The position numbers and the translations under genes were made by a program. A stretch of 35,000 nucleotides of DNA, from assembly GCA_022563535.1 (NCBI GenBank), contig JADFNE010000022.1, positions 1 to 35,000 on the forward strand, given 5' to 3'. The stretch comes from Myxococcales bacterium (GTDB taxonomy: Bacteria > Myxococcota_A > UBA9160 > UBA4427). Positions within the stretch are counted from its first letter, which is position 1, and each line of letters opens with the position of its first letter. Below are positions 1,781 to 35,000 of the stretch, in pieces. The notes under the pieces are model-generated. The model had not been told where the DNA came from. It saw nothing but the letters and a program-made list of their open reading frames with translations, and made no database searches.

Positions 1781-4700
1781 GTGGGCGCAATTCTAGATCA
1801 GCACAAGAGTTCGTTTGAGTCAGATCCGTCGAACCGGCTGGCCTTCGAAGCCATCGAGGAACACCTGTTCATGTCGGGTATGTGGAATGAGCTGATTGCG
1901 CTCTACAACCGCCGACTTGAAGCCCCTGAGTTTGAAAGTGATCCCCTTCTCTCCATACCCATATTGTTTCGCCTGGCCCAGGTCTGCGAAGAGCGGGCTC
2001 TTGCCGTCGATCGCGCCATCGAGACCTATTGGAAGGTTGCCAAGATCGATCCGAGTTATCGCCCGGCGCTGCGTCAGCTACGTCAGATCTACGCCCACCG
2101 GGAACAGTGGGACATGGTGCTGCAGATTGCCGAAATGGAAGAGCAGCTTGAGATGTCGACACACGAGAAGGCAAGTTTCTCTGCGGAACTCGGCGATGTC
2201 TGGAAGGGAAAGCTCAACGATCCCACCGAAGCGCTGATCCACTATGAAAAGGCTCTCGCTCTGGTTGACGATCACATCCCCGCCCTGTCCGGACTGGCGC
2301 AGGTTCACGAAGGGCTCGGCCATCACGAACAGGCGGCAGCGGCCTGGGAGCGCTTGTCCGAACGCACACGCGGACCGGATCGCGCACCCATCCTGGTTTC
2401 ACTCGGCAATATTCTGGACAAGCATCTCGATCAGTCCAGTCGCGCCATGGAGTGCTTTCAGCGCGCACTCACCGATGATCCGCGCTACGCCAGCGCGGTG
2501 GAAGCCCTTTCGGTCACAGCCACCAGACTCGAAGACTGGCTACTTGTCGCCAAGTTGTATGAACGTCGCTTCGACATTGCATCCGGCGCGCGCAAGCGCA
2601 TAGGCATCGCCGTCGATGCCGCGCGCCTGAACCTCGAAGAGTTGAATGACACGCAGGCATCCCGTATGTGGTTGGACCGCGCTCTTGAATTCGGGGATGG
2701 AGACGCGCCGGTCTACGAGGTGCTCGCAGAACTCGAGCGCCGTACGGGCAATCGCGACGCATTGCGCACAGCGCTCGATCGACTGATCGAACTCCAGGGC
2801 GACGACGTATCCACCAGCTTGCTGGTGGAAGCGGCGGATCTGTATTCGGAATCTGGTGTCGAAGCAGAGGCAATCGCGTTGCTGCGAAAGGCACAAATTC
2901 GCGAACCGGAAAATACCCTGGTCATCGAGGCCCTCTCCGACGGTTTGGCGCAACTGGGTATGAATGTCGAACTCGTCGAAGTGCTCGAACGACGGGCGGC
3001 ACTGACCGAAGACGACCCCCAGGCCAAAAGCGAGATTTACGCCGAGATTGGCCGCATTCGCCTCGAAGATCTCGACGAGCCAGAAGCGGGCATGGAAAAT
3101 TTCACCAAGGCCTTTGATCTCGACCCCAGCACCAAGGGCGCAGCCGCGCAACTCGAACGGCTCTACCGAAAAAACGAAGACTGGAGTGGCCTGCGCACAC
3201 TCCTGGAACGCGCTGGCCGCGAAGGTCCGGCTTCGAAACGTTCACACTATTTCGCTTCGTTGGGCGAAGTATGCGAACAACAGTTTGAGGACAACGACGG
3301 GGCGATTTCGGCGTTCGAGTCCGCGCTAGAACTCGATCCCCATTGTGTGATCGCGCATCAGGGAATGGCGCGCATCGTCCACGCCTCAGGAAATCCAGAC
3401 GAACTACTGCGGATCTGCGAGCGCGAAGCCGAGACCACCACGGATCGCGTGCGGATGGGCGAACTGGTCTGGAGCATGCTCCCCCTGCTTCAAGAGCGTG
3501 AGCGTCATGGGGATGCGCTGACCTGGGTCGAAAAACTGAACCAGATGTGTCCCAATGACTGCAACACCCTGAAGGCGGTCGTGGAATTGCGCGAAGCCCT
3601 GGGACAGCGGGACGAGCTTCAAGATCCGATGGAACGACTCGATCGTGTCCTCAGCGGTGCCGAGCAGACCACCAACCGACGCAAGCTCGCCCAGCTCCAT
3701 CGCGACGCCGGCCGGCACGAGCAAGCGATCGAGTGGTATCAAACGGCCCTCGACAGCGACCCGGGCCACCTCGAGTCGCTGCGATCCCTCAAGGCCCTTT
3801 ACAGTGAGACCCGCGATCTCGATTCACTGGCGCGAACGATGCGGCGGCTGGGGGAAGTGCTGCCCGATCAAGAGAGTTGCGACGAATTCGGAGACCTTGC
3901 GAGTTTGCTCGCCGAGCAGATTGGGGACGTCGAGGGCGCGATCGTCGTCCTCTGGCGTCTGGCGAAGATTCCCGCAGGCCAGCGCCCAGACGACATCGAC
4001 GAGAGACTCGAAGGACTGCTGGAACGAGCGGACCGATTCGAAGAACTCGTGCAGCGGCTACTCGAGCGGCGGCGGATGTTCGATGATGAGAGCAATGCGG
4101 CGCGCGAGCTGGACCTGCGTCGAGCAAAGCTGTTGTTGGAGCACCTCGGGCAGTACGAAGAAGCGGCATCGCTGTTCGGAAGTCTCCGCGCGCACGATTC
4201 CCAAAACAAAGAAATCCTCGATGGTCTCGAAAAAGCATTGCGACTCGGCAACGACGTCGAGAGACTGGTGGACTTGCTCGCGGACCTCGCGGAGCATGAA
4301 TCCGACCCGACGACTCGCACCAATATCGAGATGGAGCGCGCAACACTTCTCGAAGACATACTCGGCGCGTTCGACGAAGCCCTGATCGCACTCACCAAGC
4401 TCGCCGAGCAGACCGACGTGCCAGAACTCGCAGATCAGGCAGGCCAGCAGCTCGAAAAGCTCCTGACCCGCAGCGGTGATTGGGAGGCATTGCGCACCCG
4501 ACTGGTTGGACGACTGGGAAACGGCAGCCAAGAAGACGATCTAGCGCTTCACGAAGAACTCGCGCTCCTGTCTCGAGATCGCTTTGGTGAACCCGAAGCC
4601 TGTGTCGAACATCTCGAGGCGGCCGGCAAAATCGCACCCGATCGCCAACCCATCTGGCACAACCTCGCGGTTCTCTACGCCGAACTGGATCGCCCCGAAG

Positions 4701-7700
4701 ACCTGCTGCGCGTGCTCGAACACGAACTTACCCTCGGTCTCGACCTCGAGCGCGAAATCATGCTGCGCTCCCGCGCGGCACGATTGGCGAACGATCTCGA
4801 AGACCGCCAAGAAACTTGCAGCCAACACTACGAACAGATCCTTCGACTCGAACCCGGCCACGCAGAGGCCACGGAGTATCTGCTGGAATTCTACGATCGA
4901 GAGTGCCGACCCGCCGACATGGCTGGCCTGCTTCACGCTCGACTCGACGCAACCGTCAACAGCGACGAACCCTCCGACACAGTGACCGCCAGCGCGATTT
5001 CGCTGCGCCTGCGCATCTCCGCTCTGGAATCCCTTGCGCTCGATGATGACGCAGCCGCGGTCGCAACCCTCGAACCCGCAATCGCCGAGGTCGGACCCAC
5101 CGCTGCAATCGCGAAGCCGCTCGTCGAACTCTACCAGCGACTCGGAAGGCGTGAGGAATACATCGCCCTCAGTCTGCGCGCCGCCGACCACTGCGATCAA
5201 CCCGAAGAACGTGCGGGCTGGTTTCTCCGGGTGGGCGACGCCCTGCGACAGGAAGGCGAAGCAGAGCGTGCGATCGAAGCCTATGGTCGCGTGCTCGAGA
5301 ATTGTCCAGACGATCTCGATGCACAGTCGGCGCTGCGAGAGTTGCACAGAGAACGAGGAGATTCCGAACCCCTCGCAGCATTGCTTGCGCGGGAGATCGA
5401 AAGACGCTCGGGTGAAAACACGATCCCGTTGCGCTTCGAACTCGCGATTCTGCTCGCCGGCCCACTGGCCCGACCGGATTCCGCACTCGAGGCCTTCAAC
5501 GAAATCCTCGAAGCAGACGAGCGCCACCCCGAAGCTTTCGTTCACGCTCTCCACCTGAACATCAGTCTCGAGCGACACGAAGAAACCCAACAGCTACTGG
5601 AAAGCGGCCTTTCCCGTACCAATGCTCCGAGTGCACGGGCGGCTCTGCTCGAGCGACTCGCCGACCTCGAGGCCGGTCCACTCGAATTGCCCTCGACTGC
5701 ACTCGGGCGCTACCGCGAAGCCCTGAGTCTCGACCCGTCGCGCTCGAGCGTCCGCGCAAGCATGAACGCAATCTTGACGGACCTCGGTCGCTGGGTCGAA
5801 TTGCTCGACAGTCTCTTCCTCGAAGCTCAGCGCGCCGAGCCGAGCGAGCGCGGTCAGATCTACGAGCGCGCGATCGAAATTGCGAGTCGCGAAGTCTCCA
5901 CCGACGCGCCCCTCCCTTGGCTCGAACGACTCCATGCTGCAACGCCAGAAGACGCCGATGTCTTGTCGAGAGTTGCCGACATTCATCGACAGGCGGGTCG
6001 CCCCGAGGCGTTGCTACGCGCCCTGGAAGCCCAGATGCTCCTGCAGACCAACCCAACCGAACTGCACGCACTTCATTGCGACATCGGCAGGATCCTGGAG
6101 CGCGATCTGTCGGCACCCGGCCGAGCCGTCATGGCACTCGAAGCAGCACATGCGATCGATTTGGACGATGCGGAATTGTTGACCAATCTCGATCGTCTGT
6201 ACGAAACATTGGGGCGCTTTGCAGATCGTGCTGGAATCATCGAGGAACGAATCGCCTGCCCGGAAACCCCGGCCGATTTGCTGGCAACACTACATCGCGA
6301 AGTTGCCGAACTCTGGCACACAAAGCTGTCGTCACCCGAAACAGCGACGCGCCATCTATTGCACAGCCTGAACCTGAGCGAACCGGAATCGCCAGATGTG
6401 TTGCCCGTGATCCGTCACCTCCAGCAGACCCTGCGCGATACCGGCAGACTCGACGGCTGGGCACGAGCGGCGGAGTTCGAACTCGAACGACTTGTCGCCA
6501 CCCGCGATCCGATTCACGATAAACGGCGCTACGAACTCCACAGCGAGCTCGCGGACTGCTGTGAAAACGTGCTCGCGCGACCCCAACTCGTCCAACGTCA
6601 TCTGCTCGCATTGCTCGACGATTGGAACGGCGCGCAGCCCCTCACCACAGAACAAATCGACGCGGCCGAAGCTGCGTTGATCCATCACCTGCGCCGGGAA
6701 CACAATCACGTCGAACTCGACCGACGTCTCGGCGCGCGACTGGATCGCAGCGACGGAAGCGCCGAGGACTGGCTCGAACTCGCGGGCTTGCAGCTGGAGA
6801 GACTCCATCGACCGAGTGCAGCGCGACGTGCATTCCGCAAAGTGCTCGATCAACGCCCCGAATGCCTGGACGCCATTCGCGGATTGCGTCAGGCATCAGA
6901 AACTCTGCGCGATTGGCAGGGTGTCGCAGAGAGCCTCGATCTCGAACTCGCACTCGACAATCGTTCCCGTACAGCACAAGAATCGTCCGCGCTGTTGCGT
7001 CGCCTGGGCGAGATCACTTGGAAGCAGTTGCAGACCGACGATGCCCTCGAACGTGCGTCCCGGGCGTATTGCGAAAATCTCATCCAGGTGCCCGACGATC
7101 TCGACAGCGTGCGCGCCCTTCAACAGATCGAAGAGGAGCGCGGAGAATACGCAGCGGCGGTAACTCGCCATCGGCAGGAAATCGACATCCTCGGCGACGC
7201 CGAGCCCGATCAGCGCCAGCGAGTCTGGCTGCGAATCGCCGATCTCACGCGAGACAAGACCGATGAACTCGAGCGCTCGATCGAAGCATTCGCCTCTGCC
7301 GCCGAGTGCGCCGATCTCTCGGTGCAGCGCCTGCGCGAGTGGGCGGAGCTATATCGAACCTCGGAAAACTGGGAACGCTTTGCCGATGTCTTTGGTCGCT
7401 GGTGTGATGCTCGGGGAACCCCGGCAGGCTGTTCGGACTTGTTGGTTCTCGTCGATGTACTGAACGAACTCGGCCAGCATGACCGGGCTCTCGAACGCGC
7501 CGAAAAGGCGATCGAAGCCGATCGCACCAGCGCCACCGCCTTTGAGCGCGCCGCCGATCTTCGCGAACAAAGTGGAGATCTTCGCGCTGCTGCCGATCAC
7601 CTCGCGGAGGCGGCCGAACTCACCGACGCGCCCACCGCGACGGTCCAGCTGCTGCGGGCCTCGCGGATGCTCAGTGATGTTGACCCCGAACGCACTGCGG

Positions 7701-9706
7701 CTCTGCTGAAACGCGGCGCCGAACACGACGCCGCGTCCCAGGAGATTCAGGCGCGCACAGCCATCGTCTGCGAACAACTCGAGCGCTGGGACGAAGCCGA
7801 AACCGCTGCAGCGCGCGCTCTCGACTCCAGTTTGGATCGCAGCCTTCTCGAAGATGGGCTGCTGTTGAAAGCCGCCCTCGCGGGAGGTCGCGCGGCCTGG
7901 CGGGGCGATGCGATCGAATCGGCGACTCGATTGTTTTCCGCCGCCCGGGACCTCGAATCCGAGAACATCGAAGCCCTGGACGCCCTCGGCGAGCTTCTCC
8001 ATCTGAGCGGAGACGTGCGCGCCGCGCGAGATGTCCTCGACATCCGGCTCGCAATGCCGGGTGAAAATCCGAAGGCGGGCCTGCAACTCGCAATCGTCGG
8101 AGAGGCCCAGGAACTCGACGAAGAATTTGCACGTGCGCTCGAGACCTACCTGCGAGCCATCGAAACGGATCCGGCCCAGGACCATGTTCACGACGGCATT
8201 GTCCGCATTCACCTGATCAACGAAGACCAGACAGCTGCCATAGAGGCCCTCGACAACTGGCTCGCACTGCTGGAAAACGTCACAAAGAAATCCGCCCAGC
8301 TGGTTCGCGCCGCTGCTCTCGAACAAGGCATCGACAAAGACGAAGCTGCGCTCTCGCGTTTGCGCGAGGCCACCGACATCGACCCCGCGAATGCGGATGC
8401 CTGGACAATGCTGGCCGATCTGTTGCTCAAACTCGACCAGCCCGACGAGGCCCTGGAAGCCGCAACCTCTGGGCTCGCCGTGATCGATGGTGCAGATCGG
8501 TCGAGCGTGGCCACCCTCGCCTACATTCGCGGTTTCACCCTCGAGCGGAGCGGCGAAGAGACCCAGGCCGCGGGCGCGTATGGTCTGGCGGTTGAAAACG
8601 ATGCCACCCAATCAGAGGCCGTACTCGCCCAGTCGAGACTATTGCGGAGCACCGGTGAATGGCAGCTCGCGGCCGAGGTGCTCGACAACTTTCTCGACAA
8701 TCACCCGGAGCCCATGAACGAAATGCTGGCCCAGGTGAATTACAAGCTAGGTCGATTGCTCGCTGGCCCCCTCGAGCGAGTCGAGGAAGCCATTCAGTGT
8801 TACGAACGCGCCATCGCGATCGATTCCGATTTCACTCGAGCGATTGAGCCCCTCGCCAATCTGCTCAGCCACATGCCCGACCGATGGCAGGAAGCGGTCG
8901 GCCAACACCTCTCCCTGCTTCGAGAGGATCCCGCGCGGGAGTCTTCGATTCGCTCGTTGATTGCGATTTGCGAGCAGCGTGGCGACGACCGCGGACGACA
9001 AATCGGACTCGCGATCCTGCGGGCATTGGGCGCGACCTCCGACGACGAATTCGCGACCGCCCCGGACAAACTCGGGTTCAAGGTGGCGGGGAACTCTGAA
9101 CTCTCCGATCCGCATGAGGAACGTTTGCGCAGGATGGTCGTGCAAGCCCGCGACGAAATTTCCCAGGCACTGCGGGGCGTGGCGACACCGAGCAATGAGA
9201 CAGAACCCATGGGGCTGCATCCAGCGCAACAGGCGTTCATGGATTCGGTCGGCACGGCAGTCGATGAGTTGTCGGTGCCAGGGTTCGGCACCCTCGACCC
9301 GCAGATCATCGGACAGACGCTCCAACAGGTCGCCGCGTTGGCGCTGGACGTCGAGCGACCAGAAATTGACCCGACGATCGCGGATCTACTCGAAGGCTCG
9401 ATCGGCCGCTGGGCGCGCCGCAAGCTGCGCAAGTGTCTGGACGGAACCGGCCAGGACGAAATCCAGAACATTCGCTGGGACGATTGGCAACAGTCGCTTC
9501 GCGGTGCTGGGGCCGCCGTAGCCCTGGATCGCAACCAGGGCGATCTGCGCTGCGCACTACTTGCACTTTCGGCAGAAAGTGAAGATTCCGGCGCCGAAGA
9601 ACTCACGGAAAGCGAGAATATTGCCGATCGAGTCCGCAGCAGGGAGATCGCTTTTTCACTGCTGCGCCAGGTTACGCGGATCTGGTGTACGCAAATTGGC
9701 AAGTAA
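1781..9706 (+). CDS. Giant tetratricopeptide-repeat protein, 2641 aa
   Basis: This is an almost entirely alpha-helical repeat protein with no signal peptide or membrane segment, so it is probably cytoplasmic. Repeats start within the first 40 residues. The compound unit is about 70-75 residues, two TPR hairpins, marked early by W35, W110, a copy near 182 and W253. Each unit reads roughly W..L..LY.RRL, then R...LA.I.E..L.D...A...Y..AL..DP....AL..L. Such units continue to about residue 2400, implying some 30 or more copies. The last ~190 residues are not obviously TPR and contain a basic stretch (RWARRKLRK). TPR arrays bind proteins; no catalytic motif is visible. The start is GTG at 1781, with a purine-rich Shine-Dalgarno sequence. 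A PilZ gene follows 53 bases later. Similar giants occur in myxobacterial-type genomes, from memory; the function is unknown. Confidence 0.9.
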   Translation: MGAILDQHKSSFESDPSNRLAFEAIEEHLFMSGMWNELIALYNRRLEAPEFESDPLLSIPILFRLAQVCEERALAVDRAIETYWKVAKIDPSYRPALRQLRQIYAHREQWDMVLQIAEMEEQLEMSTHEKASFSAELGDVWKGKLNDPTEALIHYEKALALVDDHIPALSGLAQVHEGLGHHEQAAAAWERLSERTRGPDRAPILVSLGNILDKHLDQSSRAMECFQRALTDDPRYASAVEALSVTATRLEDWLLVAKLYERRFDIASGARKRIGIAVDAARLNLEELNDTQASRMWLDRALEFGDGDAPVYEVLAELERRTGNRDALRTALDRLIELQGDDVSTSLLVEAADLYSESGVEAEAIALLRKAQIREPENTLVIEALSDGLAQLGMNVELVEVLERRAALTEDDPQAKSEIYAEIGRIRLEDLDEPEAGMENFTKAFDLDPSTKGAAAQLERLYRKNEDWSGLRTLLERAGREGPASKRSHYFASLGEVCEQQFEDNDGAISAFESALELDPHCVIAHQGMARIVHASGNPDELLRICEREAETTTDRVRMGELVWSMLPLLQERERHGDALTWVEKLNQMCPNDCNTLKAVVELREALGQRDELQDPMERLDRVLSGAEQTTNRRKLAQLHRDAGRHEQAIEWYQTALDSDPGHLESLRSLKALYSETRDLDSLARTMRRLGEVLPDQESCDEFGDLASLLAEQIGDVEGAIVVLWRLAKIPAGQRPDDIDERLEGLLERADRFEELVQRLLERRRMFDDESNAARELDLRRAKLLLEHLGQYEEAASLFGSLRAHDSQNKEILDGLEKALRLGNDVERLVDLLADLAEHESDPTTRTNIEMERATLLEDILGAFDEALIALTKLAEQTDVPELADQAGQQLEKLLTRSGDWEALRTRLVGRLGNGSQEDDLALHEELALLSRDRFGEPEACVEHLEAAGKIAPDRQPIWHNLAVLYAELDRPEDLLRVLEHELTLGLDLEREIMLRSRAARLANDLEDRQETCSQHYEQILRLEPGHAEATEYLLEFYDRECRPADMAGLLHARLDATVNSDEPSDTVTASAISLRLRISALESLALDDDAAAVATLEPAIAEVGPTAAIAKPLVELYQRLGRREEYIALSLRAADHCDQPEERAGWFLRVGDALRQEGEAERAIEAYGRVLENCPDDLDAQSALRELHRERGDSEPLAALLAREIERRSGENTIPLRFELAILLAGPLARPDSALEAFNEILEADERHPEAFVHALHLNISLERHEETQQLLESGLSRTNAPSARAALLERLADLEAGPLELPSTALGRYREALSLDPSRSSVRASMNAILTDLGRWVELLDSLFLEAQRAEPSERGQIYERAIEIASREVSTDAPLPWLERLHAATPEDADVLSRVADIHRQAGRPEALLRALEAQMLLQTNPTELHALHCDIGRILERDLSAPGRAVMALEAAHAIDLDDAELLTNLDRLYETLGRFADRAGIIEERIACPETPADLLATLHREVAELWHTKLSSPETATRHLLHSLNLSEPESPDVLPVIRHLQQTLRDTGRLDGWARAAEFELERLVATRDPIHDKRRYELHSELADCCENVLARPQLVQRHLLALLDDWNGAQPLTTEQIDAAEAALIHHLRREHNHVELDRRLGARLDRSDGSAEDWLELAGLQLERLHRPSAARRAFRKVLDQRPECLDAIRGLRQASETLRDWQGVAESLDLELALDNRSRTAQESSALLRRLGEITWKQLQTDDALERASRAYCENLIQVPDDLDSVRALQQIEEERGEYAAAVTRHRQEIDILGDAEPDQRQRVWLRIADLTRDKTDELERSIEAFASAAECADLSVQRLREWAELYRTSENWERFADVFGRWCDARGTPAGCSDLLVLVDVLNELGQHDRALERAEKAIEADRTSATAFERAADLREQSGDLRAAADHLAEAAELTDAPTATVQLLRASRMLSDVDPERTAALLKRGAEHDAASQEIQARTAIVCEQLERWDEAETAAARALDSSLDRSLLEDGLLLKAALAGGRAAWRGDAIESATRLFSAARDLESENIEALDALGELLHLSGDVRAARDVLDIRLAMPGENPKAGLQLAIVGEAQELDEEFARALETYLRAIETDPAQDHVHDGIVRIHLINEDQTAAIEALDNWLALLENVTKKSAQLVRAAALEQGIDKDEAALSRLREATDIDPANADAWTMLADLLLKLDQPDEALEAATSGLAVIDGADRSSVATLAYIRGFTLERSGEETQAAGAYGLAVENDATQSEAVLAQSRLLRSTGEWQLAAEVLDNFLDNHPEPMNEMLAQVNYKLGRLLAGPLERVEEAIQCYERAIAIDSDFTRAIEPLANLLSHMPDRWQEAVGQHLSLLREDPARESSIRSLIAICEQRGDDRGRQIGLAILRALGATSDDEFATAPDKLGFKVAGNSELSDPHEERLRRMVVQARDEISQALRGVATPSNETEPMGLHPAQQAFMDSVGTAVDELSVPGFGTLDPQIIGQTLQQVAALALDVERPEIDPTIADLLEGSIGRWARRKLRKCLDGTGQDEIQNIRWDDWQQSLRGAGAAVALDRNQGDLRCALLALSAESEDSGAEELTESENIADRVRSREIAFSLLRQVTRIWCTQIGK

Positions 9707-9759: not shown

Positions 9760-10107
9760 ATGGCACAGCGAACGCCCGACGACACCCGACGATTCCGCCG
9801 ACAAGGACTTCGTATCCTGGTGGATTACAGCTGTGACGGAGGGCTCCACTGTGACTATGCAACGTCGATATCCGCGGGCGGACTCTTCATCGAAACCGAA
9901 TCGGCCCTTCCACTCGAAAGTTGCATCAAGCTTCGGTTTCGCCTGACCAACGGCGAGATGCTCCACGAGATCGAGGGGCGCGTGTGTTGGTGTAATGACA
10001 ACACCGACACGAATGCAGCCCAGCAAGCTCCCGGTTTCGGAATCGCTTTTACCAATGGCGAAGGCACCGTCTTGCTGGCACGCGAACTGGAAGACCTGGA
10101 ATTTTAA
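9760..10107 (+). CDS. PilZ domain protein (c-di-GMP receptor)
   Basis: This is a 115-residue single-domain PilZ protein. The N terminus has the arginine motif RRFRRQGLR, matching RxxxR, and the second motif appears as ATSISAGGLFIE, matching the (D/N)xSxxG signature with Thr in the usual acidic position. A beta-barrel pattern follows, ending GFGIAF. Both c-di-GMP-contacting motifs are therefore essentially present. ATG at 9760 is chosen because GAGGAG lies about eight bases upstream; an in-frame TTG at 9721 would add 13 residues with no homology and no ribosome site. It follows the TPR giant on the same strand and may be co-transcribed. It probably relays c-di-GMP to a protein partner, since it has no output domain. 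Confidence 0.88.
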   Translation: MAQRTPDDTRRFRRQGLRILVDYSCDGGLHCDYATSISAGGLFIETESALPLESCIKLRFRLTNGEMLHEIEGRVCWCNDNTDTNAAQQAPGFGIAFTNGEGTVLLARELEDLEF

Positions 10108-21986: not shown

Positions 21987-24032
21987 ATGCAAGCAAAGTC
22001 CGCTCTCTGGGTTGGTCTGATTTTCGTCGCCGGATTCGCAGCAGTCATGAACGAGCGATGGGATCCATCTCCATTGACGGAATCGACGCAACCGCAAGTG
22101 GCTCCCGTCTTCCAAAGCAACCGAGAAGAGGCCGTAGACCTGGGGCTCGCCGATCCGGCATCTAACACGACCGTCCCCACCGCGACGAGACATCCCAAAG
22201 AACGTCCGTTGCAATCCTTCAGCGGCACCGGGCTCGATGGCGAGCGGCTTTCGATCTCGGACTTCGTCGGCAAGCGCATGATGATCTTCTTCTTCAACCC
22301 CGAGGTCGACGAAGCCGCTTTTGCAGCAGTGGCGGTGTCGCGGGTAGCAGCGTACCGCGGGAAAAACAACTTCCACCTGATCGGCGTTGCGATCGGATCG
22401 GACCGCTTCACTGCAAAAACGTTCGCCGAGAGCAAGGGACTCGATTTCCCAATCTTCGACGATTCGAACGGCGCGATCGCCTCCAAACTGGGCCTGCGGA
22501 ACCCGGTCGTCATCTTCGGCTTCGACGACGAGGCCTACTACGAATTCGGCGTCGGCTTTTTCAACAAAGACGTTTCCGACCCCGCTGGCGTCGTCGAAGA
22601 ACAACTGCGGAAGAAATTGCGCCTGCCGCCGCGAAGCACTGGCACAGCCGGCGTCCTCGACGTACGCCCCCTCGCGCCGATGTTTTCTACCCGGCGACTC
22701 GACCAGAGCGAGCCCTTCGAACTCTCCAGTCTCTCGGGCAAGCCCCTGGTGTTGATGTTCTTCCTCCACACTTGTCCACACTGTCACGCGGCGTTCGACT
22801 TCTTCAAACAACAGCTCGCAAAATTGCCCGACGACAAGCGGCCGGAACTTGTCGCGATCTCCGCGGCCAATCAACCGGTAGCGGTGCGCAGGATGTTGCG
22901 AGAGAGGAAACTCGAAGACCTGGAGATGCAGATGCTGTTCGATCCAGACGGGGACGTGATGGAGACGTACGGTGTCTTCGCCGGTTTCCCGGACATCTTC
23001 TTGATCGACCGCTCGGGAAAGATCTTGCACCGCACCCAGGGCTGGCAAGACGATCGGGACCCGGCGCTCAATCGCATGATCCTCTCGAAGATTGCCGGAA
23101 CGAGAATCCCCATGTTGCTCAACCCCAGAGGCTACACGGGGAGCGACGTGTGTTCGGTATGCCATGAACTGGAGGCGCAGACCTACCAGTTCACGCAACA
23201 CGCCGATGCGTTCAACACCATCGTTACCCACAACGAAACCCGCAACCCAGAGTGCGTAAGTTGCCACGTGGTGGGCTTCGAAAAACCGGGTGGATACAGC
23301 TTTGACGAAACGCCCGTGCATCTCGAGAACGTGGGCTGCGAATCGTGTCATGGCCGCGGCGGACCGCATCTGTCTCCCGATTTCGTCCCCAAAGTGAACG
23401 GCGTGAAGAACTACGAAACCGTGTGCCAAACCTGCCACAACCCCACGCACTCCATCAGCTTCGATTACGCGAGTTTCCGATCGAAGATTTCGCATGTGAA
23501 AATCGGGAGCCTCTCGAACACACAGCGGAGCGCATTGATCGACGACGCAGCGAAGCCGCGCGACGTACTCCCGAAAAACGCGGACTACGTCGGCTCGAAC
23601 GCCTGCCGGAGTTGTCACCCGAGCGAGTACAAAACCTGGGCGAGCAGCCCGCATCGCCACGCGGTCGACACCCTCGACATCAAGGGCAAAGCGGATGACG
23701 CCACCTGCCTCAAGTGCCACACGACCGGAATGGGACGCGCCGGCGGTTTTCCAAAGGACGGTAAGGGCAGCGACCGCAGCCATGGGGACCTCGCGTCGGT
23801 GGGATGCGAATCGTGCCACGGGCCCGGGGGCAACCACATTGCACCCGCGGCAAAGAAGTTCGGAAGCATCGTGAGCCTGGCCGACAAATGCGATTCTTGC
23901 GCGATTCTGCAAATCTGTGGCTCATGTCACGACCAGGCCAACGATCCCGGGTTCGAATTTGAAGTCGAAGCAAAGATCGAACTCCAGAGGCACGGAACCA
24001 TCGAGGTGGGCACTGGGAAGCCGCTGAATTGA
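21987..24032 (+). CDS. Two-thioredoxin-fold / octahaem cytochrome c fusion protein
   Basis: This 681-residue protein starts with a signal or anchor segment (4-21), so it should face the periplasm. A peroxiredoxin-like domain (75-210) lacks cysteines. A second thioredoxin-fold domain (225-370) has the active-site pair CPHC (263-266) and a cis-Pro-like GFPDIFLID. Residues 385-681 contain eight CxxCH haem sites at 389, 423, 451, 480, 540, 574, 607 and 644, plus CDSCA at 635 that lacks the histidine. The haem part is an internal duplication: CVSCHVVGFEKPGGY ... VGCESCHGRGG is echoed by CLKCHTTGMGRAGGF ... VGCESCHGPGG. Tetrahaem units of this type resemble the cytochrome c-554 group. The redox partner is unknown. 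No good ribosome site is seen before ATG 21987. The stop overlaps the next gene. Confidence 0.92.
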   Translation: MQAKSALWVGLIFVAGFAAVMNERWDPSPLTESTQPQVAPVFQSNREEAVDLGLADPASNTTVPTATRHPKERPLQSFSGTGLDGERLSISDFVGKRMMIFFFNPEVDEAAFAAVAVSRVAAYRGKNNFHLIGVAIGSDRFTAKTFAESKGLDFPIFDDSNGAIASKLGLRNPVVIFGFDDEAYYEFGVGFFNKDVSDPAGVVEEQLRKKLRLPPRSTGTAGVLDVRPLAPMFSTRRLDQSEPFELSSLSGKPLVLMFFLHTCPHCHAAFDFFKQQLAKLPDDKRPELVAISAANQPVAVRRMLRERKLEDLEMQMLFDPDGDVMETYGVFAGFPDIFLIDRSGKILHRTQGWQDDRDPALNRMILSKIAGTRIPMLLNPRGYTGSDVCSVCHELEAQTYQFTQHADAFNTIVTHNETRNPECVSCHVVGFEKPGGYSFDETPVHLENVGCESCHGRGGPHLSPDFVPKVNGVKNYETVCQTCHNPTHSISFDYASFRSKISHVKIGSLSNTQRSALIDDAAKPRDVLPKNADYVGSNACRSCHPSEYKTWASSPHRHAVDTLDIKGKADDATCLKCHTTGMGRAGGFPKDGKGSDRSHGDLASVGCESCHGPGGNHIAPAAKKFGSIVSLADKCDSCAILQICGSCHDQANDPGFEFEVEAKIELQRHGTIEVGTGKPLN

Positions 24033-28898: not shown

Positions 28899-30764
28899 TC
28901 ATCGACTCGGAGCGGCCATTCCCTGGCTCTTCGAACTCTTACGAGCCACAAACGTAAGCGGCGCGCTATCGACGACCTGAAGACCTTGTTTGCCCGCTGC
29001 AACGATGAATCGTCCCATCCGGGCGAGATGTTGCTTCGGCTGGATATCTACCGTTTCGACGACCCGTCGGAACTTGGCATCGAGCATCTGCAAGCCTCGA
29101 TTTCCGAGCACGAACAAACGCCCCGCCACAGCGACAAGATCTTCGACCTGACCAAGTTTCTTCATCGACAAGCGCGAGACGATCTTGGGCTTACCGGGAT
29201 TTTTGAGGTCAATCACGACGACGCCGCCATTGCCGAGCACCGCGGCCAAATGACCGAAACCCACCACACGATAGGGCGCGAACTCGTAACCAAGCTCTAG
29301 CTTATGCTCGACCTGCTGATGGCCGAGCAACTCGAGGTTTGAAATGATCACCGACTCGCCGTCGGTGAATACCAACGAGTCTTTCACCCGGGCGAGCCCC
29401 TTGATCGGTCGCCGCAGCAAGCGTCGCGGGTTGCCGCCGTTGTGATCGATCATCAACAGGCCACGGCTGCTCGCCAGAATCAGCTCCTTGCCGAACGGAA
29501 CAACCGCCGCGATCGAGCCGACCGCCGGGCGCTCCTGGGCGCCGAGTTTGCGCGGACCCGATTTGCTGAACCCCACGACTTCGACGCCGTCTTCGCCGTA
29601 GATCACTACCCGCTTGCCCAGGATCTTGATCCCGTTCCAACGGGTGAAATCCTTGGGGCGCGAATACTTCGCAAGCGGAAACGCCGCCTCGGAATTGGCC
29701 AGCTCGAGTAGCTGGAACTCACCATTGTCGAACAGGATCGCAGTTCGATCGCCAGCGCTGTCGATTGCAATAATTTCCCTCTCCGCCGTCACAGGTTTGC
29801 GCAACACCACGCGATTGGGCCAGGAAGCCACCGGCACGAAGAACGACTGCCAAAACGAAAGGGCATTGGGGTTGAGCACCACCGAGCTGCCGTCAGAGTG
29901 TTGTTCACTGTCGAGGCGCTTCCGAAAGACCCGCTGCCAGATGGGTTTGTCGGCCAGATCTGCATAGAGACTCACCCGGGTCGTGGCGAGCATGCCAGGC
30001 CGGCTGAAATTGCCATTTTCGAGTTTCGCCTTGGTCGGGGCTTCCTTGTATTCGATGACGAGGTGGGCCCTCGGGTTCTTTGCGCGCTGCGATTGGGTCT
30101 GGGATTCGGGGACATCGACCATCTGATACCCCGCGCTCTTGAATCTCCGACGTGCCCGGTCAGTGAACGCGCTGACGAGACGTGCTTTTCCTGGAGTCCC
30201 TGGCGAGACGCGAACGGTCAAGCCGACTCGCTTGAACTGCCTTCGCGCTTTCAACTCAAGGGCCTGCACGCTCTTCAATGCTTCGGTTGTGTAGTCACTG
30301 CTGGGATGGGACTGGGCAAATTCAGCCAGACCTTTCGTTCGGTTGCTGAAACCTCCAGCCTTTAGATAAGCCATGTTGCCCAGCGCACGCGCGGCGTTCG
30401 GACCCTCGGGATAGAGCGCCAGGAATTGGGTGTACCCAGCGGATGTACCGGCGAAGCGCGCGCGATTGAAGGCCAGGGGCTCGAGCTGGTCGCGCAGCGG
30501 ATCGGCGAGTTTGCTGTCCGGGTACTTCACCTTGAAGTTGTCGAAGCCGTCGAGAGTGAGATTTCGCTCTAGTTCGAGAACCGCCATGTGTTCTTCGGCT
30601 TTGGCAATGTGGCGCGAGTCGGGATTCTTCTGGATGAAGCGGCGAAAGTCTGCCAGGTTGTTCCGCTTTTCGACCGAATACCACGAGCCACTCATGCATG
30701 AAGTCAGCATCAGCGAAACCAGCACCGGCACCAGTATTGTTCTCAACCCTCGAACTGCTCGCAT
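28899..30764 (-). CDS. Lipoprotein with TPR and beta-propeller (LVIVD-like) repeats
   Basis: This 621-residue protein has an N-terminal lipobox LMLTSC with C23 as the lipidation site; residue +2 is Met, so outer-membrane sorting is likely. Residues 35-165 contain helical TPR-like pieces resembling BamD/YbgF-type (NLADFRRFIQKNPDSRHIAKAEE and FAQSHPSSDYTTEAL). After a middle beta domain (about 180-330), the second half has propeller blades such as GKELILASSRGLLMID, HLAAVLGNGGVVVIDLKNPGKPKIV and GRLFVLGNRGLQMLD, close to LVIVD repeats. It may be a cell-surface or periplasmic scaffold. ATG at 30764 has GGGAGAAGAG ahead; an upstream in-frame start at 30830 would spoil the signal peptide. Confidence 0.87.
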   Translation of the reverse strand: MRAVRGLRTILVPVLVSLMLTSCMSGSWYSVEKRNNLADFRRFIQKNPDSRHIAKAEEHMAVLELERNLTLDGFDNFKVKYPDSKLADPLRDQLEPLAFNRARFAGTSAGYTQFLALYPEGPNAARALGNMAYLKAGGFSNRTKGLAEFAQSHPSSDYTTEALKSVQALELKARRQFKRVGLTVRVSPGTPGKARLVSAFTDRARRRFKSAGYQMVDVPESQTQSQRAKNPRAHLVIEYKEAPTKAKLENGNFSRPGMLATTRVSLYADLADKPIWQRVFRKRLDSEQHSDGSSVVLNPNALSFWQSFFVPVASWPNRVVLRKPVTAEREIIAIDSAGDRTAILFDNGEFQLLELANSEAAFPLAKYSRPKDFTRWNGIKILGKRVVIYGEDGVEVVGFSKSGPRKLGAQERPAVGSIAAVVPFGKELILASSRGLLMIDHNGGNPRRLLRRPIKGLARVKDSLVFTDGESVIISNLELLGHQQVEHKLELGYEFAPYRVVGFGHLAAVLGNGGVVVIDLKNPGKPKIVSRLSMKKLGQVEDLVAVAGRLFVLGNRGLQMLDAKFRRVVETVDIQPKQHLARMGRFIVAAGKQGLQVVDSAPLTFVARKSSKSQGMAAPSR

Positions 30765-30828
30765 CGCTCTTCTCCCGCAGTTACACAATTCCTGCGTCAC
30801 AGGACATCCCAGAGAATGCAGACATTGC

Positions 30829-30856
30829 AAATTGCAGCTCGCTGCATCGGCAATTT
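30829..30856. promoter_or_regulatory. Inverted repeat in the lipoprotein gene promoter region
   Basis: AAATTGC (30829-30835) and GCAATTT (30850-30856) are perfect 7-bp arms separated by 14 bases, with a second stem TGCAG/CTGCA inside. It lies about 65-90 bases upstream of the lipoprotein start. It could be an operator; no regulator is assigned. Confidence 0.3.
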
Positions 30857-31034: not shown

Positions 31035-31113
31035 GGCAACTCTGGCCGATCAGTTGGAGACGAGCGTGGACAAAGAACGTCGTCCGGCAGTAGAGAGCAG
31101 GAAGGTTCCCTGC

Positions 31114-31210
31114 TCTCCTCGAAAAGGCAAACCCGCGGTAACGCGGGGACGCAAAGCCAGTGCCCTTCACTCGGTAAATCCGAGCGGGTCGAACGGCTAC
31201 CGAAAGGAGA
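31114..31210 (+). promoter_or_regulatory. Class I cyclic-di-GMP riboswitch (GEMM-I)
   Basis: The conserved GEMM-I segments occur in order. P1 is TCTCCT (31114-31119) with AGGAGA (31205-31210). GGCAAACC is at 31126-31133. P2 is closed by a GTAA tetraloop of the GNRA class (31138-31141). GGGACGCAAAGCC is at 31146-31158. P3 contains CTCGG/CCGAG (31170-31174 and 31180-31184). The final conserved GGCTACC is at 31195-31201. The aptamer is complete, so c-di-GMP binding is expected. It precedes the secreted HYR-type gene by about 120 bases. Whether ligand turns expression on or off cannot be read, because the expression platform is unclear. Confidence 0.92.
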
Positions 31211-31330
31211 ACAGGCCCAGTGAAGGCCTTCCTGGCACATCGCCACCGCTCATTCCCGTAACGCACCTGACCTCCGCGCCTTATCAGGACAGGTCTGCAC
31301 TCGCGTCTGGTTTCCATCTGGAGACTAAGC

Positions 31331-34300
31331 ATGAGAGTCAGACTGAGTAACAAACACGCTCTCGCCGAGCACCGACTGGGTGTCATGGCCGCGTTGGTGG
31401 CGGCGATCAGCGGGCTGCTTTGCCTGACGATCGCACCCGCTGCGTTTGGCCAGGCCATTTTGGATTCGAATCAGATCCGCGGTCAGATCAAATTTACGAA
31501 CAGCAACTCTGCCATCGTCGCGATCCTTCACAACGGCGATGGCTTGAGATACACCAGCGTCCGCGCCGACAGCATCGGCGTAACACCGGCGCTCAACAAC
31601 AGCACCTGGGTCACGACCAGTGATCCAATGGCCCTTGACTACGAGATCACCGTCGAGAGTGGGTCACCGGGTGTGAGTTATGACGTGCGAGCCAGCGCGA
31701 GCCTCGCGGCCGGCATGAAACGCTACGTATTCGAGAAGAAAACTTCTGCGCCGGTCGAGCCCGAACCCGCTGCGGATACGATCGTCAACTTCAGCGAATG
31801 TGCTGGCGTGGTCGACGTTCGTTGGCATGACACGCTGGGCAATCCGTTCGAGGTTTCCGGCGGAACCATGCAGGCGTACCGCAGCGATGCAGATGGCCGC
31901 CGCAGAATGCAGGCATATGTCTACCGAATCCCCCCGGACAGCAGCCAGGAATACATGATCGTGCGAGGTGATGGTGCAAGCTATGAGGTCTCGATCAACT
32001 ACGAAACCGGCAACGATCCCTTCGCCACCACCGTGCGTGCGATCTGCAAAGAAACTGTCGTGGTTTCTTGCGACGAGATCGTAGAGATCGACTGCATCAT
32101 CCCCCCCGGCGGCCAGCTCGGAGATATTTCCGGAGTGATCGACATGGAGGGAGAGGACGAGCATGACATCGGCAATATGACGCAGATGTTCGCGTTCGAC
32201 GGTCCCCTCGGCAATTTGCGCTACGACAAGATCGAGGGCAATCCCGCGTCTGGCCCGTTCTTGCTGCAAAATCTCATGCCCTCGGATGCCGAGGCTACTC
32301 CCAAGGGTTACGCGGTCTACGGCCAAATGATCTTTCGCACCGGCTATCGGACCCAACGGCTGCGAACTCCCTACCTCTACAACTCGATCAATGGGGGCCG
32401 CGTGATGGTGACTGCCGGGGAGACAACGGATCTCGGTGACACCTTCGTGATGAAGCCGGGCTACCTGACCGGCAGCATCTTTTTGACCGGACCCGCCGAC
32501 GGCACCGGGACGCCGGCGCTCGCAACGCTCTACCGAGATGCGGACATCGATACCGATGGCGACGGCATCCCGAACAACTACTACCTCTCTTCTGGCTCGT
32601 ACATTGCGGCCGAAGGCATCCACAAAGTCGCTCCGGGCGCCACCAATACGGCATGGGGTGGCTATGCGCGTACTTCGTTCGCCGGTGGGTTCGATTCGAC
32701 CGCACAACAGTTCACAGGCGACTATGAAATAGTGCTTGGAGGTCTCGCACGAGAGAGCTCCATCTGGAGGCCAGCTGGACTTTCTCTGACCTTCCGCGAT
32801 ACCTCGACCCCGTGGGATCCCGACAGCTACTACAATTCATCTGTCTACGTGAGACCGTCGTTGTATGAGACGGTCGAAATTGTTCCGGGTGAAACGGTCA
32901 CGCGCGACTATGCACTGTGCATGAGCGAAGTCGATCTCAGCTATCGGTCCGTATCGGGTGTCTTCTACAGCCCGAGGACCAGCGGCAGAGGAAGCTTCAA
33001 GGGCGAAGACTTCCGGGGCATCCAGACCGAATACACGAGTTGGATCGGGTATTCGGCAGGCACGCCGGAAAATCTTGCCGACGCTTCAGACCACGGCCTG
33101 GTCAAGATGCTGCTGCCCGAGGGCAGCTATTCGCTGACCCCCAATGTCATGGCGGTCAATCCGGGTGGAGGCACCAGCTACACTGAGTTGCGTCCGGTTA
33201 CAATTGAAGTGGGTTGCCAACAGCGACTCTCGCTATCGACCGAGTTGCAAGTGAGCGTTGCCGACTTGGACCAATGCGTCGACAACAGGGCGGTTGCCCT
33301 CGTCGGTGCGGTATCGGGCGGCGGTGAGGTCAGCTCGCTCTCGTACGTGCTCAATGATGCTGCGCCGGTGAACCTTTGCAGTGGTGATTGCGGTGTTGAT
33401 CCGACATTCGAGACCAGCTTCGAGGCCGAGGGCTGTAGCGATACGATTACAGTCACCGCTCTCGATGCGAACGGAAACAAAGCCTCGGTCGAAACGCGCA
33501 TTCAAGACAACGAGCCACCGGTCCTCTCCAGCTGCGACGACATCTTTGTCGACACGCTCCCCGGTGGGCTGAATGCGTCGGTCGACTTCGAAGTCGTCGC
33601 GACCGACGATTGCAAGGCAGCTCCGACCGTTGCCTGTGATGCCGAGGCGGGGGATCTTTTCCCGATCGGCTCCACCACCGTCTCGTGTGAGGCCCAGGAT
33701 GCGTGTGGCAACGTCAGCCAGTGCAGCTTCAGTGTCACGGTCACCGGGATCGCGGCACCGGAACCAGAGCCGGAACCGGAACCGGAGCCGGAGCCCGAGC
33801 CGGAAGATCCTGAATCCGACTGGGTAGACGAGACTCCTGTGGGCGACGAGGACGAAGTGGACCTCAACGTTTGTCTGGACGAGCCCGAGGATCGCACGCC
33901 CATCGTGACCTGTGGTGTGGAGCGGCCGAAACTCTGGCCCCCGAACCACAAGCTGGTTCGTCCCGGCTTCACAACCAAAGCTGTCGATTCTTGTGAGAGC
34001 GTTGGCGGGGATCAGATGGAGACGGTGCTGGCGACTGCCACCTGGGTCTACAGCGACGAGCCGGAAATTTCGGTGCCGAGCAATGGCGGGAGCAATGCCG
34101 GGCCCGGTAATTCTGGGTCCAAGGGCAACCAGGGCTCCGAGCCGCAAGCAACCCGGGGCGGCAAGGGTGGCAGTCGCGTGATCAGCAGCAACGGAAGCGG
34201 CAGGCATGCCCCCGACGCAAAGGATCTGGATGCGGATCTTCGGCTGCGGGCGGAGCGGGCCGGCAGCGGGGATGGTCGCGTTTATCTCGCGATCAGTGCC

Positions 34301-34492
34301 TCCGAAAACGAGGCGGGCAACGAAGGTTGGGCTTGCTGCACGGTCATTGTGCCGCACGACTTGAAACACAGCAGCCTGGTTGATTTGCAGGACGCCGCGG
34401 ACGAGGCCCGCGACTACTGCGAAGCCTATGGCGAGGCACCGCCCGACTTCTTTGAGCACGGACTCTCGGAGGAAATCGGACCGATGCAGTAA
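31331..34492 (+). CDS. Secreted HYR-domain, Cys-containing surface protein under GEMM control
   Basis: This 1053-residue exported protein has a signal peptide with an unusually long n-region and cleavage predicted after AFG at about 40. Residues 45-720 form beta-rich domains of unclear family, with paired cysteines. About 727-808 is a HYR-like Ig-fold domain (DNEPPVLSSCDDIFV, ATDDCKAAP, GSTTVSCEAQDACGNVSQCSFSVTVTG). A Pro-Glu repeat (807-825) forms a stiff spacer. A second module has CGVERPKLWPPNHKLV near 860-872, a Gly/Ser-rich linker (about 917-960), and a C-terminal domain with RLRAERAGSGDGRVYL and WACCTVIVPHD. HYR domains usually act in adhesion. ATG at 31331 has CTGGAGA nine bases upstream. 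The riboswitch upstream suggests production tied to attachment state. Confidence 0.9.
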   Translation: MRVRLSNKHALAEHRLGVMAALVAAISGLLCLTIAPAAFGQAILDSNQIRGQIKFTNSNSAIVAILHNGDGLRYTSVRADSIGVTPALNNSTWVTTSDPMALDYEITVESGSPGVSYDVRASASLAAGMKRYVFEKKTSAPVEPEPAADTIVNFSECAGVVDVRWHDTLGNPFEVSGGTMQAYRSDADGRRRMQAYVYRIPPDSSQEYMIVRGDGASYEVSINYETGNDPFATTVRAICKETVVVSCDEIVEIDCIIPPGGQLGDISGVIDMEGEDEHDIGNMTQMFAFDGPLGNLRYDKIEGNPASGPFLLQNLMPSDAEATPKGYAVYGQMIFRTGYRTQRLRTPYLYNSINGGRVMVTAGETTDLGDTFVMKPGYLTGSIFLTGPADGTGTPALATLYRDADIDTDGDGIPNNYYLSSGSYIAAEGIHKVAPGATNTAWGGYARTSFAGGFDSTAQQFTGDYEIVLGGLARESSIWRPAGLSLTFRDTSTPWDPDSYYNSSVYVRPSLYETVEIVPGETVTRDYALCMSEVDLSYRSVSGVFYSPRTSGRGSFKGEDFRGIQTEYTSWIGYSAGTPENLADASDHGLVKMLLPEGSYSLTPNVMAVNPGGGTSYTELRPVTIEVGCQQRLSLSTELQVSVADLDQCVDNRAVALVGAVSGGGEVSSLSYVLNDAAPVNLCSGDCGVDPTFETSFEAEGCSDTITVTALDANGNKASVETRIQDNEPPVLSSCDDIFVDTLPGGLNASVDFEVVATDDCKAAPTVACDAEAGDLFPIGSTTVSCEAQDACGNVSQCSFSVTVTGIAAPEPEPEPEPEPEPEPEDPESDWVDETPVGDEDEVDLNVCLDEPEDRTPIVTCGVERPKLWPPNHKLVRPGFTTKAVDSCESVGGDQMETVLATATWVYSDEPEISVPSNGGSNAGPGNSGSKGNQGSEPQATRGGKGGSRVISSNGSGRHAPDAKDLDADLRLRAERAGSGDGRVYLAISASENEAGNEGWACCTVIVPHDLKHSSLVDLQDAADEARDYCEAYGEAPPDFFEHGLSEEIGPMQ
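33759..33812 (+). repeat. Pro-Glu hexanucleotide tandem repeat
   Basis: About eight to nine hexanucleotide units (CCGGAA/CCGGAG variants) encode consecutive Pro-Glu pairs between the HYR domain and the C-terminal module. Such repeats form extended linkers in surface proteins and can vary in copy number. Confidence 0.85.
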
Positions 34493-34629: not shown

Positions 34630-35000
34630 CTACAGACCGAACAACCCAACAGAGACTCCCACAGGACCGTCGAGCAGAGTTTGGTCTCCTGCCAGGCTTC
34701 GGAGCGGCGCCATGTCCCCGGTGTCGGTTCTCCCGTGTACGGTGACACTGTCGCCTGAAAAGTTCGTCACGAAGAGTTCTTCGCCGCGAACAAAAACTCT
34801 TTCGGGATCGTTCAGGCCCGTACTGGCTCCGGTGATCGTTCGAAGTGGGGCGACATTACCGTCGTCCCCCGTATCAAATACGGTAATGGTGTTGCTGTTG
34901 ATGTTGGCGACGAAGATCTCACCTCGAGTTGCATCCACAAAAATTCCACGCGGTTCATCGAGTAGAGTATTGCCTCCGGTGATGATCCGCGTAGGAGCGA
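34630..35000 (-). CDS. Beta-propeller repeat protein, C-terminal part (partial)
   Basis: The reading frame is open to the right edge, and the 123 visible codons form the C terminus. They contain tandem ~45-residue blades: an IITGGNTLLDEPRGIFVDATRGEIFVAN type unit is followed by TITGASTGLNDPERVFVRGEELFVTNFSGDSVTVH and a last SLAGDQTLLDGPVGVSV. Each starts with P-L/T-R-x-I-x-G and contains the (E)-(I/L)-F-V-(A/T)-N strand, as in YVTN/NHL-type propellers. These are often secreted. Signal peptide and total blade number lie outside the window. It converges on the HYR gene. Confidence 0.85.
   Translation of the reverse strand, partial: APTRIITGGNTLLDEPRGIFVDATRGEIFVANINSNTITVFDTGDDGNVAPLRTITGASTGLNDPERVFVRGEELFVTNFSGDSVTVHGRTDTGDMAPLRSLAGDQTLLDGPVGVSVGLFGL

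Follow-up and report, generated by a model that had tools for sequence, protein, structure and literature searches.

The window, i.e. the whole 35-kb stretch of DNA analysed, comes from an uncultured Myxococcota-type bacterium and carries a c-di-GMP-I riboswitch aptamer ahead of the gene for an exported HYR-domain protein. Comparison with related sequences shows contact bases of the c-di-GMP type, a conserved pairing between an SD directly 3′ of the aptamer (SD1) and an anti-SD strand in an extended P1 helix, and an alternative pairing of the same strand in an upstream hairpin, P0. The reading preferred here, to which a probability of about one half is given, is that loss of translation of a short leader ORF at high c-di-GMP lowers HYR expression, possibly via Rho, with SD1, P0 and P1 forming a switch that acts at the ribosome. 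The features concerned are as follows (window coordinates).

31093–31101 (+): 5′ arm of P0 (GAGAGCAGG), the anti-anti-SD; forms a 9-bp hairpin with 31109–31117, −16.4 kcal/mol
31109–31121 (+): 5′ strand of P1 and anti-SD (CCUGCUCUCCUCG), common to P0 and P1; pairing and covariation in 31 relatives
31116–31204 (+): c-di-GMP-I (GEMM-I) aptamer; RF01051, 63.2 bits; G20 = 31126, A47 = 31153, CC 31200–31201
31132–31147 (+): P2 hairpin with GUAA (GNRA) tetraloop; Rfam match and subtype alignment
31205–31209 (+): SD1 (AGGAG), immediately after the 3′ end of the aptamer, within extended P1; an SD is present in 31/31 intact subtype members
31220–31261 (+): leader ORF of 13 codons (MKAFLAHRHRSFP) with a GTG start, the sole start codon in reach of SD1
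31227–31304 (+): C-rich, G-poor stretch, candidate Rho loading region; 34 C and 15 G in 78 nt
31292–31344 (+): hairpin around the HYR SD (GGAG, 31320–31323) and ATG; −24.8 kcal/mol (z −2.7), a stability reached in 2 of 200 shuffles
31331–34492 (+): ORF for an exported 1053-aa HYR-domain protein; HYR domain at 33503–33742, LWPPNHK at 33932

Aptamer class and contact bases

A scan of the 35 kb with Rfam models gave a match to c-di-GMP-I (RF01051) with an E value of 2.8e-10, which covers positions 1–87 of the 87 in the model and exceeds the gathering cut-off of 35 bits; no second Rfam family scored above its own cut-off anywhere in the window. The initial annotation, made from the sequence alone, had claimed a class I c-di-GMP aptamer with a GNRA loop on P2 and proposed this covariance-model scan. 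Both claims held, and the sequence comparison confirms a genuine c-di-GMP-I riboswitch aptamer of a known kind, with c-di-GMP as the putative ligand. The aptamer lies inside the bounds then given for the element (31114–31330), but the switch reaches further upstream, to about 31093.

The ligand contacts are G20, A47 and C92, the last within the conserved CC, in the numbering by which G11/A38/C81 of Bc1 correspond to G20/A47/C92 of Vc2 (PMC11218506). As judged by sequence, these bases are of the c-di-GMP type and favour c-di-GMP over cGAMP, the window aptamer having G and not the A of GEMM-Ib/cGAMP RNAs at position 20. Identity with c-di-GMP-I-GGC (RF03167) was rejected, the score of 55.1 bits lying below the cut-off of 59 and the model consensus (GACGCGAA) having G47 where the window has A47. 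The canonical P3 tetraloop receptor (CUAAG/UAUG) of GEMM-I type I is absent from the window aptamer, whose receptor region is non-consensus. In the subtype described below, alignment and covariation indicate that the place of the receptor is taken by a conserved bulged helix, and on this comparison the aptamer is assigned to a lineage-specific subtype without the canonical receptor.

The subtype in relatives and the base at position 20

RF01051 was found in 22 of the 61 genomes searched. Canonical-type loci scored about 72–79 bits; their receptor is CUAAG/UAUG-like, and a terminator-like GGUCCC-U run often comes after the aptamer. Window-type loci scored about 49–65 bits, carry several kinds of GNRA loop and GCCAGUGCCC...GGGUCGAACGGC in P3, and have, directly after the aptamer, a purine-rich SD to which their 5′ strand is complementary. 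With pattern searches the window-type set grew to 32 distinct copies, of which 31 are intact and one is degenerate; those with a named source come from MAGs that bear the label Deltaproteobacteria, Myxococcota or Deferrisomatales. The collecting motif fixed parts of P2 and P3, where invariance is therefore built in, but it did not include position 20, the SD or either strand of extended P1.

In all 31 intact copies the SD begins no more than 10 nt past the aptamer end, and a start codon follows 4–13 nt beyond it in 30. Extended P1 is paired in 84% of alignment cells, as compared with 28–43% in slid controls, and in three of its pairs both partners have changed; none of 500 shuffles matched the observed pairing or covariation of the whole subtype structure. 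The anti-SD/SD duplexes of the copies are stronger than swapped ones (326 of 20,000 permutations). Own P0 hairpins average −14.24 kcal/mol versus −12.29 kcal/mol for swapped ones (3 of 20,000 permutations; the region from −85 to −120 gave no signal), this pooled test being the only significant one, as individual P0 hairpins are mostly non-significant against shuffles of their own upstream region. For the window hairpin, 1 of 200 shuffles was equally stable, and the MFE fold of the leader switches from P1 to P0 once the P0 arm is included in the folded segment.

In the window, the anti-SD strand pairs with SD1 over 31205–31210 (6 bp) and continues through CCUG/CAGG (31212–31215) and UCG/CGA, giving the second strongest extended P1 duplex of the 32. 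So strong a duplex could be closed even without ligand, which speaks against a ligand-dependent switch. The subtype has its SD paired with the closing stem of the aptamer, with covariation, and an SD conserved in this position should be hidden by bound ligand, i.e. translation would be switched off.

Several relatives differ in what follows the aptamer. Canonical-receptor aptamers of L005, L007, L010–L014 and similar loci lie upstream of large exported proteins and are followed by a terminator-like CGGUCCC-U run, which could pair with GGGACCG of the aptamer; the arrangement looks like a transcriptional switch. L028 (G005:C176) has a 29-aa hydrophobic ORF about 20 to 107 nt after a window-type aptamer and then a terminator-like hairpin, and possibly encodes a riboswitch-controlled small membrane protein. 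L113 and L115 (G033:C54) are neighbouring genes for exported DUF6701 proteins of 1.4–1.5 kaa with one window-type aptamer each.

The base at position 20 divides the copies by target. A20 was found in 12, all 12 of which have an SLT lytic transglycosylase gene downstream with ATG 6–8 nt after the SD; G20 was found in 19, none of which precedes SLT. SLT was identified by Pfam for L001 and in the others by reading similar open frames, some of them cut by contig or locus ends. On the tree the A20 copies form one cluster, for which one change is needed, with weak support. Hence the 12 are not 12 independent events, and by sequence the association of A20 with SLT is probably one inherited locus. Among the G20 targets are EAL-HDOD (four), HDOD and PilZ proteins, redoxins, a subtilase, a type IV pilin, a gene pair one product of which is reprolysin-like, the two DUF6701 proteins, large lipoproteins and the HYR protein of the window. 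DUF6701 occurs in the MSHA pilus protein MshQ. An exported HYR protein therefore fits this set, in which c-di-GMP enzymes, PilZ and pilins stand beside exported proteins such as the MshQ-like DUF6701. A search for DUF6701 in the genome of the window gave no match, but its control likewise matched nowhere, so that absence is unproven.

Two RF01051 copies above the cut-off occur in this genome, the second (L001:1501–1592; G000:C32:30963–31054) scoring 64.7 bits. It has A20 and lies directly before an SLT lytic transglycosylase gene. GEMM-Ib RNAs that prefer cGAMP are associated with replacement of G20 by A20. The L001 aptamer is predicted to be a 3′,3′-cGAMP OFF switch, and this sister copy probably reads cGAMP, another signal than that of the window copy. 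A candidate source of the signal is encoded in the same genome.

G000:C18:76347–76823 (L069/L116): GGDEF protein with the Ser signature, candidate GMP-AMP cyclase; from the sequence signature

Ser replaces Asp at the guanine-reading position (GHLVGS...GGDEF) in exactly one of the 17 readable GGDEF proteins of the genome, and this signature has been described for Hypr GGDEF proteins (PMC6456294). A relative of this protein is present in 59 of the 61 genomes, and the 30 relatives that were read all have Ser. The PilZ-type receptor noted earlier in the window is indeed encoded there (9784–10068, +, 42.6 bits), about 21 kb from the riboswitch. This gene shows c-di-GMP signalling but has no special link to the riboswitch, being one of about 29 PilZ domains in a genome with 26 GGDEF matches. 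Elsewhere in the window, a 2641-aa ORF at 1781–9706 (+) consists largely of TPR repeats, and at 21987–24032 (+) AhpC/TSA-type redoxin stretches are fused to multihaem cytochrome c554/MtrC-like domains.

The leader and proposed control of the HYR gene

The HYR product starts with a signal-peptide-like stretch and contains a single HYR domain (Pfam PF02494, aa 725–804, 44.5 bits), a (PE)n spacer and LWPPNHK, as the initial annotation had described. Beyond the one HYR domain, comparison with Pfam, NCBIfam and PDB gave no family or solved-structure match, and for this reason the proposed role as an adhesin or matrix protein stays an unproven guess. Among 60 relatives, the search for a HYR orthologue gave nothing beyond two partial matches, both weak, and the gene is missing from the other members of the genus. 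The LWPPNH DNA motif is present in five relatives, and the protein has no meaningful similarity to the targets of the relatives' aptamers. The gene is monocistronic, and since its upstream neighbour (28899–30830) is divergent and its downstream neighbour convergent, HYR is the only real gene that the leader can serve.

Convergent to HYR are giant minus-strand frames of 3458 to 3783 codons, which occupy 34630–35000 in the window, extend to about 45–46 kb of G000:C22 and are overlapped by a plus-strand frame of 3435 codons; the part in the window looks repeat-type (beta-propeller-like).

The initial annotation had taken the 120-nt platform to be without an obvious terminator and favoured translational control, giving no sign for the response. 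No intrinsic terminator was found on the plus strand, and a terminator-type platform was dropped. Far from featureless, the platform holds SD1, the 13-codon ORF, the C-rich, G-poor stretch and the hairpin at the HYR start. Translational control is preferred to a terminator because all 31 intact members of the subtype hold their SD next to P1, but the sequestered SD is not that of HYR: SD1 serves the 13-codon ORF, and HYR has its own SD 115 nt further on, its start (31331) being 127 nt downstream of the aptamer. Direct control of HYR by c-di-GMP, also claimed at the outset, is borne out as to ligand class and gene context; ligand binding, the OFF direction and the route of the signal to HYR are inferred.

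The leader ORF is in the HYR frame but is closed by TAA at 31259, with TGA at 31268, and its end leaves a gap of 70 nt before the HYR start, which makes ordinary translational coupling unlikely. In L060, L046 and L019 the leader ORF runs past the start of the main gene, evidently as a coupling relay. In the window, the frame across the HYR start is open to 31350 and has no start codon near SD1, and coupling of the L060 type was therefore rejected. The C-rich stretch belongs to the top 0.18% of 78-nt stretches in the window, and its level was reached by 43 of 4000 random 121-nt blocks (about 1%). L027, from another genus, has a similar layout of SD, short ORF, C-rich gap (C minus G 17) and large lipoprotein gene. 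This gap and the likeness of L027 favour a decrease of HYR expression through lost leader translation.

At low c-di-GMP, the anti-SD strand (31109–31118) would be held in P0 and SD1 could be free. At high c-di-GMP, the aptamer would close P1, the anti-SD strand would pair with SD1, and translation of the 13-codon leader would stop. The untranslated C-rich RNA might then be open to Rho, or ribosome delivery to the hairpin-locked HYR start might be lost, or both, and HYR expression would fall. Against this OFF model, the hairpin at the HYR SD is identical in every computed fold. In the ligand-free MFE fold a strand of aptamer P3 pairs over the leader GTG (31219–31226) and the computed accessibility of SD1 is near zero, so that the ligand-free state may also be poorly exposed.

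The opposite sign, with c-di-GMP turning HYR on as the bound aptamer keeps UCUCC (31114–31118) in P1 and off the HYR SD, or favours a fold in which HYR is translated, appears unlikely. UCUCC is complementary to GGAGA of SD1 and of the HYR SD alike, and adhesins usually go up when c-di-GMP is high, which such a switch would match; c-di-GMP increases expression of the adhesin genes CD2831 and CD3246 via class II riboswitches (PMC6366702). However, the anti-SD paired with the distal HYR SD in no computed fold, the HYR hairpin always being local, and the SD of the relatives, inside P1 right before a start codon, reads as OFF. The distance to HYR also bears on whether HYR responds at all: its start lies far from SD1 and has its own SD, whereas the target starts 4–13 nt after the SD in 12/12 A20 and most G20 relatives. 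A real aptamer might control only the 13-codon ORF, as L028 drives only a 29-aa ORF, or it might be a copy that landed upstream of HYR and whose original target was lost; the arrangement is not found with any HYR orthologue in the genus. Yet the aptamer, P1 and P0 are intact, with duplexes among the strongest of the set, which argues that the element is under selection or recent; moreover, L027 repeats the layout in another genus and no other gene is available to the leader. Independence of HYR is thus considered rather improbable.

That the window copy binds 3′,3′-cGAMP instead of c-di-GMP is very unlikely, as its G20 is that of Vc2 and it groups with G20 copies, the targets of which include c-di-GMP enzymes and PilZ. 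The Hypr Ser-signature GGDEF, conserved in relatives, and the A20 paralogous aptamer in the genome speak for cGAMP, and position 20 influences selectivity without being a strict filter (PMC9262584).

Two possible signals on one scaffold and comparison with known systems

Taken alone, the window element adds another case to the c-di-GMP riboswitches upstream of exported proteins that are known from Clostridioides difficile and Vibrio. The predicted OFF sign of a platform with the SD in P1 runs against the usual expectation that c-di-GMP raises adhesins. The wider comparison matters more: a single genome holds a natural G20/A20 pair together with a candidate cGAMP cyclase, and the lytic transglycosylase becomes a candidate cGAMP target outside Geobacter. 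In the open-licence literature, no publication was found that connects cGAMP or GEMM-Ib riboswitches to a transglycosylase. Tentatively, and with the odds somewhat against it, this Myxococcota order may run two parallel cyclic-dinucleotide circuits on one RNA scaffold differing at base 20. A20 copies would read 3′,3′-cGAMP, made by the conserved Hypr GGDEF, and shut off SLT; G20 copies would respond to c-di-GMP by shutting off surface genes, pilus genes and genes of c-di-GMP turnover. Both would close the SD into P1, with a relay by a leader ORF in some (HYR, L027, L060). It is this pairing of two signals across the lineage that merits testing.

The window aptamer resembles c-di-GMP-I (GEMM-I, RF01051) RNAs Vc2, Bc1 and Cd1 in its P2/P3 architecture, GNRA loop on P2, G20/A47/C92 and envelope or surface genes downstream. 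It differs from them in P3, where GUGCCC...GGGUCGAAC with a 3-nt bulge stands in place of the canonical tetraloop receptor, and in having the SD built into extended P1, an upstream P0 competitor and no terminator. Bc1 of Bacillus thuringiensis has a platform of about 220 nt from aptamer to start with two intrinsic terminators (PMC11218506); a long platform and possible regulation at more than one level are common to both, whereas no terminator was found here. E. coli ribB-type riboswitches, which combine a translation block with Rho termination, share SD sequestration and a leader without an intrinsic terminator; the ligand class and the intervening leader ORF set the window apart, and its Rho step is only proposed. 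The Geobacter GEMM-Ib (3′,3′-cGAMP) RNAs have the same RNA fold, and with their Hypr cyclase GacA they find a parallel in the A20 second aptamer and the Ser-signature GGDEF of the genome. The pgcA copy of Geobacter acts through a terminator (PMC6456294), whereas here the SD is sequestered, the A20 target is an SLT transglycosylase and the window copy itself has G20.
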